Of a DNA stretch of 52,574 bases, positions 17,311 to 52,574 are shown in pieces; the first letter of the stretch is position 1; every line of letters begins with the position of its first letter. The translations under genes were made by a program, and so were the position numbers. The notes beneath the pieces were generated by a model that worked only from the letters and a program-made list of their open reading frames with translations, searched no databases and had not been told where the DNA came from. Source of the stretch: Burkholderiales bacterium (lineage in GTDB: Bacteria; Pseudomonadota; Gammaproteobacteria; Burkholderiales; UBA11063); the NCBI GenBank assembly GCA_019748155.1, contig JAIEPY010000046.1, positions 1 to 52,574 of the forward strand, written 5' to 3'.

Positions 17311-18939
17311 CTAAAAATACATCCATTTAGTCATAACGTCATCACCATGATTGTTACTTGGATTGTAACCTTTGATATATGGTTTTATCAAGCGAGAATA
17401 GGTGTATTGATATAATGGGATAATCGGATAATCATTCATTGACAGCATAACCGCCTGTGTATATAAAGCTTGTTTCTGGCTGGGATCAAGAGCATAATTA
17501 GCACCATGAATTAATTCATCATAAGCTGGGTTACAATAATGCGAATTATTCTGCGGTGCATTACATAAAAACATAAAATCAGTATAATCAGTAATATTTT
17601 TACCAGCTACCCAACCATCGCGGGCAACTTGATAATTACCTTTTTGCCGCGCAAGGATAAAGGTTTTCCATTCCATATTAGTCGCAACCACATTTACGCC
17701 CAGGGTTTCTTTCCACATTGAGGCAATTGCTACTGCAATTTTTTTATGACTATCCAAGGTATTATATGAAATCTCGAGTGTTAGCGGATGGTTTGCTCCA
17801 TAGCCCGCCTCAGCATACAATTTTTTAGCTTCAGCAATTTGCTTTTCCCTAGTCCAATTCGCCCATTCATATTTTAGATTAGCATATTTACCGTTTGATA
17901 CTGTTGGTGCTACATAAGAATAAAGCTCAGTTTGCCCCTGTCCAAGTATATCCTGAGTTAGGATTTTACGATCTACTGCCATTACCAGTGCTTGGCGGAG
18001 TTTTTGATTGTCTTTTAGCTCAGGACGCATCATATTGAAGTCATAAAAATAAATTGCATCCTGTTGAACGGTATATAATTCTTTTGGATATGCTGTCTTG
18101 ATTTCTTTATAACGGTCAGTTGGTATTGAGTTAGTTATATCTATGTTATTGGCTTGATATTGATTAAATTCTGCATTAGGATCTGCAATTGCCAGATATT
18201 TCACCTGTGGAATTTTTACCGTTGATTCGGCATAGTAGAATGGATTTTTCTCGGCTGTAATATAGCCGTTTACGACATGTTCGGTCATTTTGTATGCGCC
18301 AGAAGTAACCATGTTTTGCGGCTCAGTCCAAGCGGCACCCTTGACAGCAATGAGCTTAGTTGGTACAACTTTAAAGCCTTGGTTATTACTCAGTAAATAG
18401 ATAAAGGCTTCAGATGGATGTATGAGTTTCACTATCACGGTGTTTTGGTCTGGTGCGCTGATAGCGAGTGAGCTAGGTGGTAATTTACCTTTAACAATTT
18501 GTACACCATTTTCAACTATTTCCAGCATATTATTTTGTGGTGAGCCTGTTTTGGGGTCAGCAAATCGTTGCCATGATTTGACAAAGTCTGTTGCAGTAAT
18601 CGGAGTGCCATCAGAAAATTTTATTCCCTTACGCAAATGGAAGGTATAGGTTTTTTGATCTGAGTTAATCTCCCAGCTCTCGGCTAATCCCGGGATTGGT
18701 TCTCCTTTTTGATTAAAAGATACCAGGCCTTCAAAGAAGTCATGTGCAACTCGTGCGGAAATACTATCACCGGATAAATCAGGGTCTAAAGTTGGTGGTT
18801 CACCGCCGATTGAAATATTTATCGTATTGCGTATTGGTGTGTCTGGAGCGCTATCTGTGTTAGCTAAATTTGATTTTTCTTTAGAACATGCAGAGAGGAG
18901 TAATCCGCAAATGATTAAATGCAGTAACTGTTTATTCAT
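17311..18939 (-). CDS. Peptide ABC transporter substrate-binding lipoprotein (OppA/MppA family)
   Basis: A 542-residue periplasmic lipoprotein that should bind oligopeptides or murein peptides. A signal peptide ends in the lipobox LLLSAC. Family features include GGEPPTLDPDLSGDSISARV, FFEGLVSFNQKGEPIPGLAESW, YTFHLRKGIKFSDGTPITATDFVKSWQR and the late VARDGWVAGKNITDYTDFMFL. This is the solute-binding family 5 layout. The start at 18939 is used because the lipoprotein signal begins there and GAGG precedes it; the upstream in-frame extension lies in an intergenic repeat. No permease or ATPase genes are adjacent, so it is an orphan receptor. Confidence 0.92.
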   Translation of the reverse strand: MNKQLLHLIICGLLLSACSKEKSNLANTDSAPDTPIRNTINISIGGEPPTLDPDLSGDSISARVAHDFFEGLVSFNQKGEPIPGLAESWEINSDQKTYTFHLRKGIKFSDGTPITATDFVKSWQRFADPKTGSPQNNMLEIVENGVQIVKGKLPPSSLAISAPDQNTVIVKLIHPSEAFIYLLSNNQGFKVVPTKLIAVKGAAWTEPQNMVTSGAYKMTEHVVNGYITAEKNPFYYAESTVKIPQVKYLAIADPNAEFNQYQANNIDITNSIPTDRYKEIKTAYPKELYTVQQDAIYFYDFNMMRPELKDNQKLRQALVMAVDRKILTQDILGQGQTELYSYVAPTVSNGKYANLKYEWANWTREKQIAEAKKLYAEAGYGANHPLTLEISYNTLDSHKKIAVAIASMWKETLGVNVVATNMEWKTFILARQKGNYQVARDGWVAGKNITDYTDFMFLCNAPQNNSHYCNPAYDELIHGANYALDPSQKQALYTQAVMLSMNDYPIIPLYQYTYSRLIKPYIKGYNPSNNHGDDVMTKWMYF

Positions 18940-23119: not shown

Positions 23120-24283
23120 ATGAATTTACATGAATATCAAGCTAAGGAATTGTTGGCACGTTATGGTTTGCGAGTTCAAACCGGAGTTCTGGCAACCAGT
23201 GGACATGAAGCGGCTGACGCTTATGATAAACTTGGTGGCAAATTTGCAGTAGTAAAAGCACAGGTGCATGCTGGTGGACGCGGTAAAGCTGGTGGTGTAA
23301 AAGTAGTTAAATCTCGTGATGAAGCACGCGAAGTAGCAGAGAGCCTGATCGGTAAAAATTTGGTAACCTATCAAACAGATGCTAATGGTCAACCAGTTAA
23401 TTCAGTATATGTTTCTGAGGATCTATACCCAGTTTCACGTGAATTGTACTTAGGTGCAGTGGTGGATCGTTCAAGCCGTAGAGTAACCTTTATGGCATCA
23501 ACTGAAGGTGGTGTGGAGATTGAGAAAGTTGCTCATGATACCCCTGAGAAAATTCTTAAAGTAGTAGTAGATCCGCTAGTAGGATTACAACCATGTCACG
23601 CACGTGAAGTTGCATTTCAACTTGGTTTGAGCGGTGATCAGGTTGCTAATTTTGTCAAAATGATGCTTGGTGCATATCAGGCTTTCGTGGAAAATGATTT
23701 TGCTTTATTTGAAATCAATCCATTGGCAGTTCGTGAAAATGGTGAATTGGTATGTGTTGATGCTAAGATTAACTTAGATTCAAATGCCTTATTCCGTCAT
23801 GCTGATCTATTGGCATTACGTGATAAATCACAAGAAAATGAGCGCGAGTTAAAAGCTTCTGAACATGATCTTAACTATGTTGCTCTTGAAGGTAATATTG
23901 GCTGTATGGTAAATGGTGCTGGTCTTGCAATGGCAACGATGGACATCATTAAATTATACGGCGGTCAACCTGCAAATTTCCTTGATGTTGGTGGTGGTGC
24001 TACTAAAGCGCGCGTTATCGAAGCCTTTAAGTTAATCTTAGCTGATAGCAATGTAAAAGCCGTATTGATTAATATTTTTGGTGGAATCGTGCGTTGCGAT
24101 ATGATTGCTGAAGCAATTATTGATGCAGTAAAAGAAGTTAATGTAACTGTGCCAGTAGTTGTGCGCCTAGAAGGTAATAATGCAGAATTAGGTTCTAAAT
24201 TATTGAAAGAATCTGGCTTAGCATTGATTCCTGCTGAAGGTTTAGCTGATGCAGCACAAAAAGTTGTCGCAACTTTAAAATAA
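23120..24283 (+). CDS. sucC: Succinyl-CoA synthetase, beta subunit (ADP-forming)
   Basis: TCA-cycle subunit that binds nucleotide and makes succinate plus ATP from succinyl-CoA with SucD. The 387 residues match E. coli (388). An ATP-grasp domain opens with [16 protein letters not shown] and [17 protein letters not shown]. The C-terminal CoA-ligase domain has [21 protein letters not shown] and [25 protein letters not shown] precedes the ATG, and sucD follows after 50 bp. A TAAAAT-like -10 lies near 23070. sucCD stands apart from sucAB and lpd. Confidence 0.98.
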
Positions 24284-24333
24284 CTGCTCTTATGTAGTTA
24301 GTTAAATGCCAAATAAATTAATAAGGATTTAAA

Positions 24334-25218
24334 ATGAGTGTTTTAGTTAATAAAAATACCAAAGTTTTAGTACAAGGTTTTACTGGTAAAAACGGTACTT
24401 TCCATTCTGAGCAAGCGATTGCTTACGGCACTAAAGTAGTTGGTGGTGTGACTCCTGGTAAAGGTGGCAGCCAGCATTTAGGTTTACCTGTTTTTAATAC
24501 GATGAACGAAGCTGTGCGTGAGACTCAAGCTGATGCTTCAGTTATCTATGTGCCAGCTCCATTTGTGTTGGATTCAGCAGTTGAAGCGATTGATGCTGGT
24601 GTAGCCTTGATTGTGATTATTACTGAGGGCGTGCCAACTTTAGATATGTTAAAAGTTAAGCGTTATGCTGAATCAAGCGGTTCACGGATTATCGGACCAA
24701 ATTGCCCGGGAATTATTACTTCGGGTGAATGTAAAATTGGGATTATGCCGGGTCATATTCATTTGCCGGGTAAAATCGGGATTGTTTCACGTTCTGGTAC
24801 TTTGACTTATGAAGCAGTAGCGCAAACTACTAAATTAGGCCTTGGTCAGTCAACTTGTATCGGTATCGGTGGTGATCCTATCCCTGGTACTTCACATATT
24901 GATTCATTAAAATTATTCCAAGAAGATCCACAAACTGAAGCGATTATTATGATCGGTGAAATTGGTGGAACTGCCGAAGAAGAAGCTGCTGAATACGTAA
25001 AATCTCATGTAACTAAACCTGTGGTTGGTTATATTGCTGGGGTTACTGCTCCTGCTGGTAAACGTATGGGACATGCGGGTGCAATTATTTCTGGTGGTAA
25101 AGGTACTGCGGAAGAAAAATTTGCGGCTTTTGAAAAAGCCGGGATCGCGTATACTCGTTCGCCTGCCGAACTTGGTACAACAATGTTGGAATTATTAAAA
25201 TCTAAAGGCATGATCTAA
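24334..25218 (+). CDS. sucD: Succinyl-CoA synthetase, alpha subunit
   Basis: Partner of SucC, 294 residues (E. coli 289). It has the CoA-binding Rossmann domain [20 protein letters not shown], the loop [20 protein letters not shown] and the phosphohistidine H247 in [27 protein letters not shown] before the ATG gives it its own ribosome-binding site. A small GATCTAA/TTAGATC hairpin at the stop codon (25212-25230) precedes the main terminator. Confidence 0.98.
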
Positions 25219-46669: not shown

Positions 46670-48742
46670 CTAAACTAAGTGCACTAATTGCAAAATAACA
46701 TCAATTAATTTGATTCCAATAAACGGGACAATAACTCCGCCGACTCCATAGATCAGGAAATTACGGCGTAAGAGTTTACTTGCTGACATTGGTGCGAATT
46801 TAACTCCCTTAAGAGCCAGAGGAATCAAAAAAACAATAATTAAGGCATTAAAAATAACCGCCGACATAATTGCCGAGGTTGGAGTTGCCAGATGCATAAC
46901 ATTTAAACGGTTGAGTACCGGATAAGTACCAGCAAAAGTAGCCGGAATAATTGCAAAATATTTGGCAATATCATTGGCAATACTAAAGGTAGTGAGTGAC
47001 CCGCGAGTCATCAGCATCTGCTTACCGATTTCGACAATTTGAATTAATTTAGTTGGTGATGAATCAAGATCAACCATATTCGCCGCTTCTTTTGCCGCTT
47101 GCGTTCCGCTATTCATTGCTACAGCCACATCAGCCTGAGCTAGTGCTGGGGCATCATTGGTGCCATCACCCGTCATTGCTACCAGATATCCTTGTTGCTG
47201 ATATTCACGAATCATCGCTAATTTATTTTCCGGGGTTGCTTCGGCTAGGAAATCATCGACACCAGCTTCAGCAGAAATTGCGGCAGCCGTCAGACGGTTA
47301 TCTCCGGTTATCATTACGGTTTTGATTCCCATTGCGCGAAGTTCATTAAATTTTTCTTTGATACCTTCTTTGACAATATCTTTGAGCTCAATCACACCCA
47401 GTACGCGATTATTATTTGCTACTACCAAAGGCGTCGAACCACGTGATGCGACCATATCAACGATTTTTTGCGTATCTGCCGGATAACTCCCTCCCTCCAG
47501 AGTACCCATCAGCTTCTTAATCGCGTCAGCTGCACCTTTGCGGATTTGTTGACTCTGATAATTAATCCCCGACATCCGTGTTTGTGCGCTAAAAGGAATA
47601 AATTCCAGATGGCTGTGATCAATTTGTTGTTCGTTTAAAGCATGCTTTTGTCGGGCTAAAACTACGATACTTTTACCTTCCGGTGTTTCATCCGCTAGCG
47701 ATGATAAAAATGCAGCTTCTGCCAGCTCAAATTCAGTAACCCCATCTACCGGGTAGAAATGATTGGCTTGGCGATTACCATAGGTGATAGTTCCGGTTTT
47801 ATCGAGTAAAAGAACATCGACATCGCCAGATGCTTCAATCGCCCGTCCGGAAGTGGCAATAACATTTGCACCCATCATCCGTCCCATGCCTGCCACGCCA
47901 ATCGCGGATAACAAACCACCAATAGTAGTTGGAATCAAACAGACCAATAACGCAACTAATACCGTGATACTGATCGGGCTACCTGAGTGATTGGCATTAA
48001 CACTATAGATTGACATTGGTAATAGGGTTACTACCACCAGTAAGAAAATAATCGTTAATGCAGTGAGTAAAATTGATAACGCAATTTCATTGGGGGTTTT
48101 TTGCCGTTTAGCACCCTCAACCATGCCGATCATGCGGTCTAAGAATGATTCACCGGGATTGACACTAATTTGTACTACAATCCAGTCCGATAGAACTTTA
48201 GTTCCACCAGTTACTGAGCAAAAATCGCCACCTGATTCACGGATTACGGGTGCTGATTCACCGGTAATTGCGCTTTCATCAACTGATGCACAGCCTTCGA
48301 TAACTTCGCCATCGCAGGGGATATTATCACCAGCTTCGACCAAGACAATATCGCCTTTGCGTAAGGTACTGCTGGAGACCATGGTTAGGCTATCTTTGCT
48401 GCGCGCATTACTGAGTTTTTTTGCCTGAACGTCTTTTTTAGCATTTTTCAGGCTATCAGCCTGAGCTTTAGAACGTCCCTCTGCCAAGCCTTCGGCAAAA
48501 TTAGCAAACAGCAAAGTTATCCAGAGCCAGATGGTGACATTGAGAATAAAACTGGTTGAACCACCCGCATCATGTCCGCTTGCAGAATATAGCGCGAGCA
48601 GGGTAGTCATGATGCTGCCAATATAAACCACGAACATTACTGGATTTTTGGCTTGATTTAACGGATTAAGTTTTTTGACGCTTTCAATTAGTGCCGGGAA
48701 GAGTAATTGCTTATCAAGTAAGCTTAGATTGTTCTTTTGCAT
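46670..48742 (-). CDS. kdpB: Potassium-transporting ATPase, catalytic subunit KdpB
   Basis: P-type ATPase subunit powering Kdp, 690 residues (E. coli 682). It has the phosphorylation motif DKTGTIT (near residue 310), the actuator motif TGESAPV (TGES), the nucleotide-binding KGAAD and a hinge [17 protein letters not shown], all intact. About seven membrane helices are expected. It is the first gene of the local operon, so expression of the pump starts from its promoter, which must lie in or near the repeat at 48796-48926. No kdpD or kdpE sensor genes are in the window. Confidence 0.98.
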
Positions 48743-49194: not shown

Positions 49195-50043
49195 TTATTC
49201 TGATTTTACCTTCAAAATTATTTGCCGGAAGTTTTGCAGTTGTTCTGAATACTCTTGTAAATTTTGTTGTGCTTGCTCATTTGTAATTAATCTAAACCTA
49301 ACTGCTTGCCTAAATTGAATTTGTGCCAGCTGATTTAAACTTGGCTGAGTCACTACCAAACAACGCGGATAGCCACCAATCGTTTGCCGTTGACGCATTA
49401 ATACAATCGGTCCGCCGGAAGTAAACTGGATTACACCATCTGTAACTGGTGCCGAAATAATGTCATAGCTCCGTAGCTCACACGGGTTGCCAATTAGCCG
49501 TGTACCCATGGCATTGGATTTACTGTCAATTTCCCATTCTGTAGCAAAAAATCCTTCCACTTGGCACAAATAGTCAAATTCTGGTCCTTGGGTAACGTAG
49601 AGCGTGTTGCTGTAAGGGGTGAAATAGCGTTGAAAGCTACCGCGTGCCAGATTTAAGTATTGCAAGCTTTGGCTATTCCAACAGCTCGTCATTAAATAAG
49701 TGCGTAAACCTTGTCGTGCACCATTTAGAGTCAGAATGTCGCCAGCTTGTGCGCGATAGTTTTGTGCATGGTGAATTTGTTGCTGCTGGTTTGAACTGTT
49801 TAGCAGACAATTAGGAAACCCACTACCCGTCAGGCAAAAAATCACCTCTTCAGTAAAAACTATCTGCTTAGGCGGATAAATAATTTCCAGACAACGATAA
49901 TTCTCCGGTTCACCAAGTAGAATCTGTGCAATTGCAAATGCTAATTGATCAGCCGCGCCTGCAGGGCTGATTCCCAGTGCTTGCTGTCCGTAATTACTGG
50001 CACTAACTTCCAGATAAATTCCACCGCCGTTGACTACAAACAT
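49195..50043 (-). CDS. pxpC: 5-oxoprolinase subunit PxpC (biotin-dependent carboxyltransferase-like)
   Basis: Large component of the ATP-dependent 5-oxoprolinase PxpABC, which opens pyroglutamate to glutamate. It has 282 residues (E. coli PxpC, about 310). Family signs are YGQQALGISPAGAADQLAFAIAQILLG near the start, LTGSGFP, RTYLMTSCWNSQSLQYLN, DSKSNAMGTRLIG and the KipA-type stretch VTDGVIQFTSGGPIVLMRQRQTIGGYPR. It starts 1 bp after pxpA. The slightly short C terminus may reflect family variation. Confidence 0.9.
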   Translation of the reverse strand: MFVVNGGGIYLEVSASNYGQQALGISPAGAADQLAFAIAQILLGEPENYRCLEIIYPPKQIVFTEEVIFCLTGSGFPNCLLNSSNQQQQIHHAQNYRAQAGDILTLNGARQGLRTYLMTSCWNSQSLQYLNLARGSFQRYFTPYSNTLYVTQGPEFDYLCQVEGFFATEWEIDSKSNAMGTRLIGNPCELRSYDIISAPVTDGVIQFTSGGPIVLMRQRQTIGGYPRCLVVTQPSLNQLAQIQFRQAVRFRLITNEQAQQNLQEYSEQLQNFRQIILKVKSE

Positions 50044-50044
50044 C

Positions 50045-50737
50045 TTAGTACCTTAATTTGTGGATTGCTCGGGCTAATTCTAGTGCAATCGCCGAATCAG
50101 AATGAATACACGCACTTTGAGCAATAATTGGATAGTGTTGTGAGTTGATAATCATCGCGCCATTTTGGATTTGCTGGTATTGTGCCAAAGCTTGAGTTAC
50201 GGTATCCAATTCTGCGCCAGCTTGTCCACGGGGAATTAAGCTTAATTTACCATCGCTTAGCTGTTGGTAGCCACGTTCAATGAAAGCTTCTGCCATTACC
50301 GTAATCTTGTGTTGTCTGGCATGGTTTGCTAATAGGCTATCGGCAGGTGTTAAGACTAAGTTTATGTGTTGTTGCTGCATCCAGTTTGCCAGTGCTTTAG
50401 CTAGCTCATTATTGGTATTTGCTTCGTGATAGAGTGCTCCGTGAAATTTAATTTTTCCAACTGGGAGGCGCTGATATTGTTCAGTTAATGAATTAATGAG
50501 GTTTGTTATCGAGATATTCATTTTTATTCTACCGAAGTTAGCCGCATCAGGATAGCTCAAATGTGCGCTTACCATAATATCATTATCGATTGCTAGATTT
50601 TGATAATAGGCGATACTCTTGTCATCTCCGGCGTGTCCGCCACAAGCAATATTAGCTATATCAATATACTGCATTAATTGATCGTCAATAGGATGAGCAA
50701 CTCCACGCTCACCGATATCACAGTTTGTTTTTAGCAT
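50045..50737 (-). CDS. pxpA: 5-oxoprolinase subunit PxpA (LamB/YcsF family)
   Basis: A 230-residue TIM-barrel subunit (E. coli 244) needed with PxpB and PxpC to cleave 5-oxoproline. The N-terminal motif reads NCDIGERG, then IANIACGGHAGDD, VSAHLSYPDAANFGR, KFHGALYHEAN and AEAFIERGYQ. Mid-domain histidines and aspartates are kept. The start overlaps the pxpB stop by 7 bp (ATGCTAA), so translation is coupled. Confidence 0.94.
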   Translation of the reverse strand: MLKTNCDIGERGVAHPIDDQLMQYIDIANIACGGHAGDDKSIAYYQNLAIDNDIMVSAHLSYPDAANFGRIKMNISITNLINSLTEQYQRLPVGKIKFHGALYHEANTNNELAKALANWMQQQHINLVLTPADSLLANHARQHKITVMAEAFIERGYQQLSDGKLSLIPRGQAGAELDTVTQALAQYQQIQNGAMIINSQHYPIIAQSACIHSDSAIALELARAIHKLRY

Positions 50738-51375
50738 GAATTAATATCCTTAAAAAGCAAATAATCACCAGGTTTAAATTTTTGATGATCTTCAAATTCA
50801 GTATGACCAATGATGTGCCAACCACCGGGAGAGTTCTCAGTATAGATACCAGTTTGCGTAGCGCCGATAGCAACTGAGCCTTTGGGCGTGTTAATCCGTG
50901 GTACGTTTCGGCGTGGCGTGATTAGCCGTGAATCAAGCCCAATCAGGTAGGGGAAATATGGCTTGAATCCGAGCATTGCAATTAAATAGCGTGGCGCGGT
51001 ATGTAGAGTAATTATTTGTTTGATGTTTAACTGATGCTGTGTTGCCAAAAATTCCAAATTTTCACCGTTATAGTTAGTGGGGATAATATGCGTTTCACGT
51101 TGAAAATCATTGGTTAGTGGTGAATTCCATAATCGCTCAATTAATTTATCGAGTTCCAGACGCTTAACATGGTTCCTAGCATCGGGCTTAAAATAAATTG
51201 CTAATGCGGTATAACTTGGTACAATATCAATTATCTGCCATTGAGCATAATCCAGCTCCTGCAGTAGTTGATAATATAAGCAGATAATCTTTTCGGATAA
51301 CTGGGTACTAATTTGTTGTCCAAAAGTATATTGGATGCAACTTTCACCCAAGCTATGTTTGCTAATCATATTCAT
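50731..51375 (-). CDS. pxpB: 5-oxoprolinase subunit PxpB (KipI family)
   Basis: A 214-residue subunit (E. coli 218). Features are IVPSYTALAIYFKP near residues 45-60, HTAPRYLIAMLGFKPYFPYLIGLDSRLITPRRNVPRINTPKGSVAIGATQTGIYTENSPGGWHIIGHTE in the C-terminal half (read in parts), which is the classic KipI signature. The ATG follows pcp after 6 bp; a second ATG lies two codons in. KipI of Bacillus is a kinase inhibitor, but here the pxpA/pxpC context makes 5-oxoprolinase the role. Confidence 0.93.
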   Translation of the reverse strand: MNMISKHSLGESCIQYTFGQQISTQLSEKIICLYYQLLQELDYAQWQIIDIVPSYTALAIYFKPDARNHVKRLELDKLIERLWNSPLTNDFQRETHIIPTNYNGENLEFLATQHQLNIKQIITLHTAPRYLIAMLGFKPYFPYLIGLDSRLITPRRNVPRINTPKGSVAIGATQTGIYTENSPGGWHIIGHTEFEDHQKFKPGDYLLFKDINSC

Positions 51376-51381
51376 AGTTAC

Positions 51382-52029
51382 TCAACAAATAGTGCCACCA
51401 ACTGCGGTTATGTCTTGCGGTGTAGCGATAATGGTCTTGAGAATAACTTTTAACCCGCTAATCACCGTTTCCTGTGTCATGCTTGGTTGTGCTCCCAACG
51501 CTGCAGCCTGCTCCGGTAAATATGGGATATGAATAAATCCTCCTTTGATAGCCGGATTAAGCATATTAATCCAATGCATCAGAGTATAAAAAACATGATT
51601 ACAGACAAATGTTCCGGCGCTATAGGAAATACTGGCTGGTATTCCATTATTTCGAGCGGCCTGAAGAAGCGCTTTAAGTGGTAGATTAGTGAAGTAGGCG
51701 CTGGGCGCATTTTTGATAATAGTTTGATCGATTGGTTGCGCACCTAAATTATCCGCGATCCGTGCATCATCAAGATTAATCGCCACCCGTTCCAGTGAGA
51801 TATCTAAGCGTCCGCCAGCTTGACCGATATTTAGCACAATCTGTGGTTGTAGCTCTTCAAGGAGCTTGATTAAATGCTCGGATGATTCCGTAAAAGAGCA
51901 GGGTAATTGGCGGGCAATTAGCTGATACTCGTCAATTATAAGCTGATCGAGTTGTTTTACCGCTTCCCATGATGGGTTGATTTTTTCACCGCCAAAAGCT
52001 GCAAATCCAGTAATAAGAATTGTATTCAT
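51382..52029 (-). CDS. pcp: Pyroglutamyl-peptidase I
   Basis: Cytosolic cysteine peptidase that removes N-terminal pyroglutamate from peptides. The 215 residues are the usual length. It has ITGFAAFGGEKINPSWEAV at the N terminus, NIGQAGGRLDISLERVAINLDDARIADN (oxyanion and Glu region), the catalytic Cys in YSAGTFVCNHVFYTLMH and the His in GGFIHIPYLPEQ. It lies in one operon ahead of pxpBAC, so pyroglutamate released here is converted on to glutamate. Confidence 0.96.
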   Translation of the reverse strand: MNTILITGFAAFGGEKINPSWEAVKQLDQLIIDEYQLIARQLPCSFTESSEHLIKLLEELQPQIVLNIGQAGGRLDISLERVAINLDDARIADNLGAQPIDQTIIKNAPSAYFTNLPLKALLQAARNNGIPASISYSAGTFVCNHVFYTLMHWINMLNPAIKGGFIHIPYLPEQAAALGAQPSMTQETVISGLKVILKTIIATPQDITAVGGTIC

Positions 52030-52041
52030 GGTTTTAAGTAC

Positions 52042-52467
52042 CTAGATCAAAATATATAGTAAGATCAGATTAGCTAATAAAATTCCAAGACCACTAGGAA
52101 GCTGGCTTTTAATTACCAGATTACGATCTTGTAGCTCAAGTAAGGCTGCCGAGTTGGCCGCCATTGGTGTCATCAAGGTTCCACAGTAACCAGATAACAT
52201 TCCAATTGCTGCTACCATTGCCGGATTTGCACCAAAATGCCCGATTAAAATTGGAATTCCCACGCCACCCATAATGATCGGAAAAGCAACGAAAGCATTA
52301 CCCATAATTATAGTAAATAGCGCCATGCCAAGTACGTAAATTAATGCTGCAATTAGCTTGTAATCAAGATTAATATAATTAGTAAGTGCCGCACCAACTG
52401 CAGTATCAACGCCACTGGCAGAAAATACCAATCCCAACATCGCTAGCATTTGTGGTAAAACTAACGT
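52042..52467 (-). pseudogene. DUF979 family membrane protein, 5' end cut off
   Basis: The C-terminal 140 or so residues of a DUF979 protein: LPQMLAMLGLVFSASGVD, MALFTIIMGNAFVAFPIIMG, GMLSGYCGTLMTPMAANSAALLEL and a final hydrophobic segment. Family members are about 300 residues with several helices, so over half is missing. Upstream of the native TLVLPQ stretch the frame meets a stop 2 codons further on, exactly where a palindromic mobile-element-like end begins. DUF979, with DUF969, often neighbours pcp and is a candidate pyroglutamate transporter; that function is inference. An internal ATG (52449) may still allow a truncated product. Confidence 0.78.
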
Positions 52468-52574
52468 TACTACTCAGCCCCCTAATAAACCCCAGCATTT
52501 AGGTTGAGTAGTATGCTAAAATTCCCACAGAGTAAATAATTTTTTTTAGGCTTATGATTACAACAGATTTCCAA
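52468..52574 (+). mobile_element. Left end of a probable insertion sequence, with start of a coding frame
   Basis: TACTACTCAGCC (52468-52479) pairs with GGTTGAGTAGTA (52502-52513), a 12-bp terminal hairpin with one G-T pair, at the point where the DUF979 gene breaks off. Downstream, a TTAGG stretch and an ATG at 52554 open a frame beginning MITTDFQ, still open at the window edge. A transposase gene is likely but not recognised; the IS family is unknown. Confidence 0.55.

Follow-up and report, generated by a model that had tools for sequence, protein, structure and literature searches.

A candidate 5-oxoproline importer gene probably interrupted by an IS66-family element within a salvage operon of a Burkholderiales bacterium

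The locus and its features

The DNA analysed here, referred to as the window, is a stretch of 52,574 nucleotides that forms contig C128 (JAIEPY010000046.1) of the Burkholderiales genome G000, an assembly of 2,665,226 bases in 136 contigs. On the minus strand, from 52465 to 49195, it carries the C-terminal half of a DUF979 gene followed by pcp, pxpB, pxpA and pxpC, all five of which score over the Pfam cut-offs. This confirms the gene order that an earlier note on this DNA had read from the letters, as well as its view of a gene set for the salvage of pyroglutamate (5-oxoproline) with a broken candidate importer. Together with a second contig, C97, the locus can be read as an operon of the order DUF969-DUF979-pcp-pxpB-pxpA-pxpC, in which DUF979 has very probably been broken by an IS66-family insertion and a deletion of 12 base pairs (bp), so that import would be lost while the enzymes would still work if they are transcribed. 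The features are as follows, with window coordinates unless stated otherwise.

52466 to 52574, plus strand: end of an IS66-family element, with a terminal repeat at 52466-52479 and a transposase frame that opens at 52554 and continues beyond the contig end
52458 to 52465, no strand assigned: 8-bp target duplication, the other copy of which lies at 1998-2005 of locus L002
52042 to 52465, minus strand: DUF979 C-terminal remnant, Pfam match to profile positions 162-305 of 307 (161-305 in the search of the whole genome)
52150 to 52155, minus strand: junction of a 12-bp in-frame deletion within the DUF979 C-half, FNIIP being replaced by S
51382 to 52029, minus strand: pcp, 215 amino acids, pyroglutamyl-peptidase I (Peptidase_C15), over the Pfam cut-off
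50731 to 51375, minus strand: pxpB, 214 amino acids, CT_C_D (PF02682), over the Pfam cut-off
50045 to 50737, minus strand: pxpA, 230 amino acids, LamB_YcsF (PF03746), over the Pfam cut-off
49195 to 50043, minus strand: pxpC, 282 amino acids, CT_A_B (PF02626), over the Pfam cut-off, 5-oxoprolinase subunit
Contig C97 of G000, 24208 to 24711 (L002 1483-2005): DUF979 N-half, profile positions 2-164
Contig C97, L002 776 to 1483: full-length DUF969, directly preceding the DUF979 N-half

Two complementary halves of DUF979

A profile search of the whole genome returned exactly two DUF979 matches, which are complementary halves located in the window and on C97. The N-terminal half, correctly described before as missing from the window, and the DUF969 gene sought beyond it are both found at the end of C97, where the DUF979 frame stops 77 bases short of the contig end. 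An intact DUF979 copy elsewhere, which would have contradicted the earlier note, was not found by this search in G000, which is rated 99.99% complete. Instead of one uninterrupted frame over the 307-position profile of PF06166, there are two separate halves with a net loss of four residues, and the DUF979 of G000 is, judged from its frames, a disrupted member of this family.

Insertion of an IS66-family element

On C97, the coding sequence continues to GTTAGTTT and is then followed by GTTACTGCTCAGCC; on the minus strand of the window, the remnant begins after GGCTGAGTAGTAAC with the same GTTAGTTT. The terminal inverted repeats at the two contig ends agree in 13 of 14 bases and are accompanied by the 8-bp target duplication. 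One contig runs into one end of an IS66-family element and the other contig into the opposite end of that element. By its flanks, this element is placed in DUF979 at codon 174/175, with 8 bp duplicated. A target duplication of this length is usual for IS66. The inverted ends, the duplication and an unbroken, collinear relative (G022, described below) indicate that the break is an insertion and that the window ends inside a repeated element. The duplication and the relative also make an assembly artefact at 52.47 kb, considered in the earlier note, unlikely. The remnant stops at 52465, directly next to the IS66-type end; the earlier note gave 52467.

The element was assigned to the IS66 family because fragments of its transposase match IS66 models. 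Only seven codons of the transposase are visible at the DUF979 site, but the end of contig C15 is 99% identical to the window-side element end and carries a 198-amino-acid N-terminal transposase fragment. This fragment matches PF20042 over the cut-off and NF033517 with an E-value of 6e-06 and 25.6 bits, the cut-off of 180 applying to the whole protein. A C-terminal transposase fragment in another copy matches PF03050, likewise over the cut-off.

The element is present in multiple copies in G000: counting the window itself, its window-side end is matched 17 times, and counting C97, its C97-side end 20 times, with many of these matches at contig ends. Among the fetched loci, which are a subset of these matches, an 8-bp partner in the 15 left-end flanks exists for six of the 13 distinct right-end flanks, compared with a mean of 0.04 for letter-shuffled flanks and 0 in a same-strand control; these counts include the right-end site L004 and the left-end site L017 (position 1185), both of which show a poor ungapped match to the reference ends. 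The DUF979 pair is one of the six, and the five further pairs also join contig ends (L019/L008, L020/L014, L022/L009, L024/L013 and L035/L005). Thus, the repeated element probably explains part of the fragmentation of the assembly into its 136 contigs.

On contig C126, the locus L036 (387-1864) contains two related IS66-type ends at 387-462 and 1787-1864, which enclose a transposase remnant (1585-1827) and, at 527-1579, an open reading frame judged phosphatase-like by eye. This is perhaps a decayed IS66-type copy with a passenger gene.

A second lesion in a conserved motif

A second lesion, absent from the earlier note, affects the C-terminal half: it lacks 12 bases that are present in five intact relatives, and AANFNIIPAALLEL now reads AANSAALLEL. 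The deleted motif comprises six residues of the pattern [FY]N[IML][VI]P[AVS] and occurs in 81 of 81 DUF979 frames at 80 loci of named genomes; N278 and P281 are invariant in a DUF979 alignment of 42 rows. These frames come from the best 80 loci of a survey with at least 598 stretches and at least 571 relatives and do not represent the whole family; the survey used two peptide patterns, one of which, GY[CA]GTLMT, immediately precedes the deleted motif. Whichever of the insertion and the deletion came first, the two lesions together imply that a full DUF979 protein can no longer be made.

Intact relatives and the age of the loss

The relatives were examined for an intact gene, as had been proposed, and such a gene is found in G022, a member of the same genus. 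Its unbroken DUF969-DUF979-pcp-pxpB-pxpA-pxpC locus shares 83-91% amino-acid identity with the parts in G000, and its DNA runs collinear with both contigs, C97 matching one side and the window the other. C97 and C128 were thus likely neighbours before the insertion. Of 22 additional genomes from the genus, five contain DUF979 (G002, G007, G013, G016 and G022; partial and near a contig end in G013), four contain Pcp, and three each contain PxpA and PxpB-family proteins; several of these genomes are incomplete (52% upward), so that absences carry little weight. The genus appears to be that of Aquella oligotrophica, which G016 seems to represent.

When the lesions are excluded, the nonsynonymous (dN) and synonymous (dS) divergence from G022 is 0.07 and 1.06 for the N-half and 0.05 and 1.01 for the C-half, figures that lie inside the span of the five adjacent genes (dN 0.04-0.12, dS 0.43-1.51). 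Both halves are otherwise undamaged and have changed at rates like those of their neighbours, and the decay therefore looks recent.

The enzymes of the operon

The three 5-oxoprolinase subunit families PF03746, PF02682 and PF02626 are encoded by adjacent open reading frames. Their NCBIfam scores are below the curated cut-offs (PxpA 185.2 against 213, PxpB 130.1 against 145.55, PxpC 124.8 against 500), which are naming thresholds rather than biochemical definitions. PxpABC of G000, which is 30-32% identical to its G029 counterparts, is, as far as these comparisons go, a divergent branch. PxpA matches the solved structure of Escherichia coli YbgL by sequence at an E-value of 1.7e-27. Pcp scores over its NCBIfam cut-off and contains Glu80, Cys143 and His167, which we take to be the catalytic triad of the C15 peptidases. 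A Hydantoinase_B-type oxoprolinase was found in none of the five genomes searched (G000, G016, G022, G002 and G007). Next to pxpC, the window contains a gene for a kdpB-like P-type ATPase (46670-48742, minus strand; named by eye).

The DUF969/DUF979 pair as a transporter

According to PMC11467057 and PMC12795558, Niehaus et al. (2017) proposed DUF969/DUF979 as a 5-oxoproline transporter on the basis of gene neighbourhood, and this role has been used in a metabolic model (PMC6904757). In Campylobacter jejuni, a mutant in cj0552-4 (DUF969, DUF979, DUF2891) could no longer grow on 5-oxoproline, in an experiment that its authors call preliminary (PMC12795558). Within the fetched flanks of the best 80 DUF979 loci, DUF969 occurs in 80, pxpA in 56 and pcp in 38, in agreement with the published neighbourhood. 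These counts are lower bounds because contig ends truncate some of the loci and because pxpB and pxpC may share one frame, which was credited to the better-scoring family only.

A predicted model of the intact Cupriavidus homologue of DUF979 has a mean predicted local distance difference test score (pLDDT) of 74.3 and is weakest at residues 275-285, the place of the deletion. In a comparison with known structures (VIA), the best match is VcINDY (4f35_D; Z 9.3, root-mean-square deviation 3.1, 118 aligned residues, model residues 190-316), followed by TRAP (8.7) and NaS1 and Pho90 (both 7.8); unrelated helical proteins appear from about 5.6, and values of this size can be mere background for helical models. 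Foldseek returned no match of this model in the PDB at E <= 0.001, the best rows being YdaH and MtrF, and a sequence search for DUF979 relatives of solved structure found none (best E-value 1.2, to other proteins). The claim of a DASS-like fold thus depends mainly on PMC11467057.

Interpretation and alternatives

Taken together, a multicopy IS66-family element has very probably inserted into DUF979, duplicating 8 bp, and a separate loss of 12 bp affected a conserved motif, while DUF969, pcp and pxpBAC stayed open frames. Free 5-oxoproline would then no longer be imported through DUF969/DUF979, and Pcp and PxpABC, if transcribed past the insertion, would still convert intracellular 5-oxoproline to glutamate. 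The substrate may come from imported pyroglutamyl peptides and from the spontaneous cyclisation of glutamine and glutamate. Several points weigh against this reading. The element is incomplete in the assembly at the DUF979 site, which is known from contigs alone, and a dS near 1 approaches saturation, which makes the estimate of a recent loss a rough one. The activity of PxpABC is deduced from Pfam family and neighbourhood, given the scores below the NCBIfam cut-offs, and transport and expression in the organism are predicted from sequence only. Finally, G016 contains the pair and pcp without a PxpA or PxpB-family match, so that in this genus supplying PxpABC may not be the specific task of the pair.

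It is a serious possibility, although not the one we favour and not one raised in the earlier note, that the insertion has cut off pcp-pxpBAC from a promoter ahead of DUF969 and thereby silences the whole pathway rather than import only. The element sits in the interval from DUF969 to pcp, with a transposase frame directed away from pcp. In the element end that is present, the minus strand shows no promoter-like site, and the remnant has only a weak one (9/12 positions, 52331-52304); thus, without a strong promoter-like site in between, a polar loss of the enzymes is possible. Overall, the promoter scan found five sites, fewer than the shuffle mean of 11.3. On the other hand, pcp and pxpBAC are open and conserved, most of the element is unseen at this site, and consensus scans are weak evidence: the promoter and terminator scans gave results close to or under those of shuffled sequence and do not decide the matter.

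The fate of import under the favoured reading, in which only the transporter is lost, depends on other carriers. No Nramp-family (PxpT-type) importer was matched in G000 by a search that finds one in seven of 14 control genomes, and a substitute importer of this type was therefore rejected. Uptake of free 5-oxoproline has thus probably been lost, carriers of other kinds not having been searched for. Pyroglutamyl peptides may still enter by general routes, because contig C134 carries an oppAABCDF-type operon with two OppA proteins (L128 2650-9844), and G000 also encodes two POT-family permeases; the Opp proteins score below the NCBIfam cut-offs, OppC being over the Pfam OppC_N cut-off. The lipoprotein at 17311-18939 (minus strand) of the window, which the earlier note had offered as an example of the peptide route, is a third OppA paralogue away from this operon and 49% identical to each OppA there. 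Given the operon and the permeases, it was rejected as the only peptide route, and peptide import would not have to go through it.

The earlier note further suggested that loss of the importer may have left the pathway dependent on the uptake of peptides. As a possible source, pyroglutamyl peptides are supported by the intact Pcp and by the Opp-type operon and the POT permeases, but as the sole source we consider them unlikely: glutamate and glutamine should also give rise to 5-oxoproline spontaneously inside cells (PMC13274462), so that PxpABC would keep a substrate without any import, there is no sign of altered peptide uptake, and the lipoprotein is only one of the three OppA paralogues seen.

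A different function of the pair is suggested by G016, apparently A. oligotrophica P08T, the single contig of which carries DUF969-DUF979-pcp (L042 5713-7973) and shows no PxpA, PxpB-family or Hydantoinase_B match. According to the description of P08T (PMC6612550), the listed GEN III carbon sources are used and all others are not, and L-pyroglutamic acid, which occupies well E8 of that plate (PMC9781131), is not in the list. With the transporter pair lacking the oxoprolinase in G016 and the enzymes lacking the transporter in G000, the two occur separately in the genus. It is nevertheless rather improbable that the pair is not simply the PxpABC importer here and instead exports pyroglutamate released by Pcp or carries pyroglutamyl peptides.

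An artefact of assembly or population, in which the contigs end at a repeated element and some or even all cells carry an unbroken DUF979, is very unlikely. Both C97 and C128 do end inside the multicopy element, but the 8-bp duplication is exactly at the site, five more such pairs occur in G000, the 22-base sequence of the empty site is absent from the assembly with up to two mismatches allowed, and the same gene carries an independent 12-bp deletion. That translation restarts at the ATG at 52449 and yields a functional 135-residue partner of DUF969 is hardly credible: the frame is open and its substitution rate relative to G022 is low, but no clear ribosome-binding site precedes this ATG (by eye), the first ~180 residues are missing and the conserved motif is deleted.

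Comparison with known systems

The preferred reading, an interrupted importer gene beside open enzyme genes, is a case of ordinary insertion-sequence pseudogenization and gene loss in an operon of known kind, and the transporter role of DUF969/DUF979 is already in print. Its genetic support is preliminary only (PMC12795558), and the locus of G000 is chiefly useful as a natural knock-out. The genus offers natural separations: the operon is intact in G022, G002 and G007, the transporter is broken beside open enzyme genes in G000, and the transporter and Pcp occur without the enzymes in G016.

Compared with known IS66 elements, the element of G000 has matching transposase fragments, inverted ends and 8-bp target duplications, but it is assembled only in part at the DUF979 site and classed by protein models and ends. 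The PxpABC clusters with DUF969-DUF979 described by Niehaus et al. (2017), and those of Cupriavidus and other genomes in the survey of 80 loci, contain the same families, with DUF969 beside DUF979 and pcp and pxpABC often near; in G000, DUF979 is interrupted, the order is pcp-pxpB-pxpA-pxpC and PxpABC is divergent. The same pair is encoded by C. jejuni cj0552-cj0554, where the genes are intact and a mutant no longer grew on 5-oxoproline (PMC12795558), whereas the DUF979 of G000 is a natural pseudogene. Corynebacterium glutamicum pxpTABC likewise combines PxpABC with a transporter in one operon, but there the transporter is PxpT, of the Nramp/APC type (PMC13274462), a family without a match in G000.

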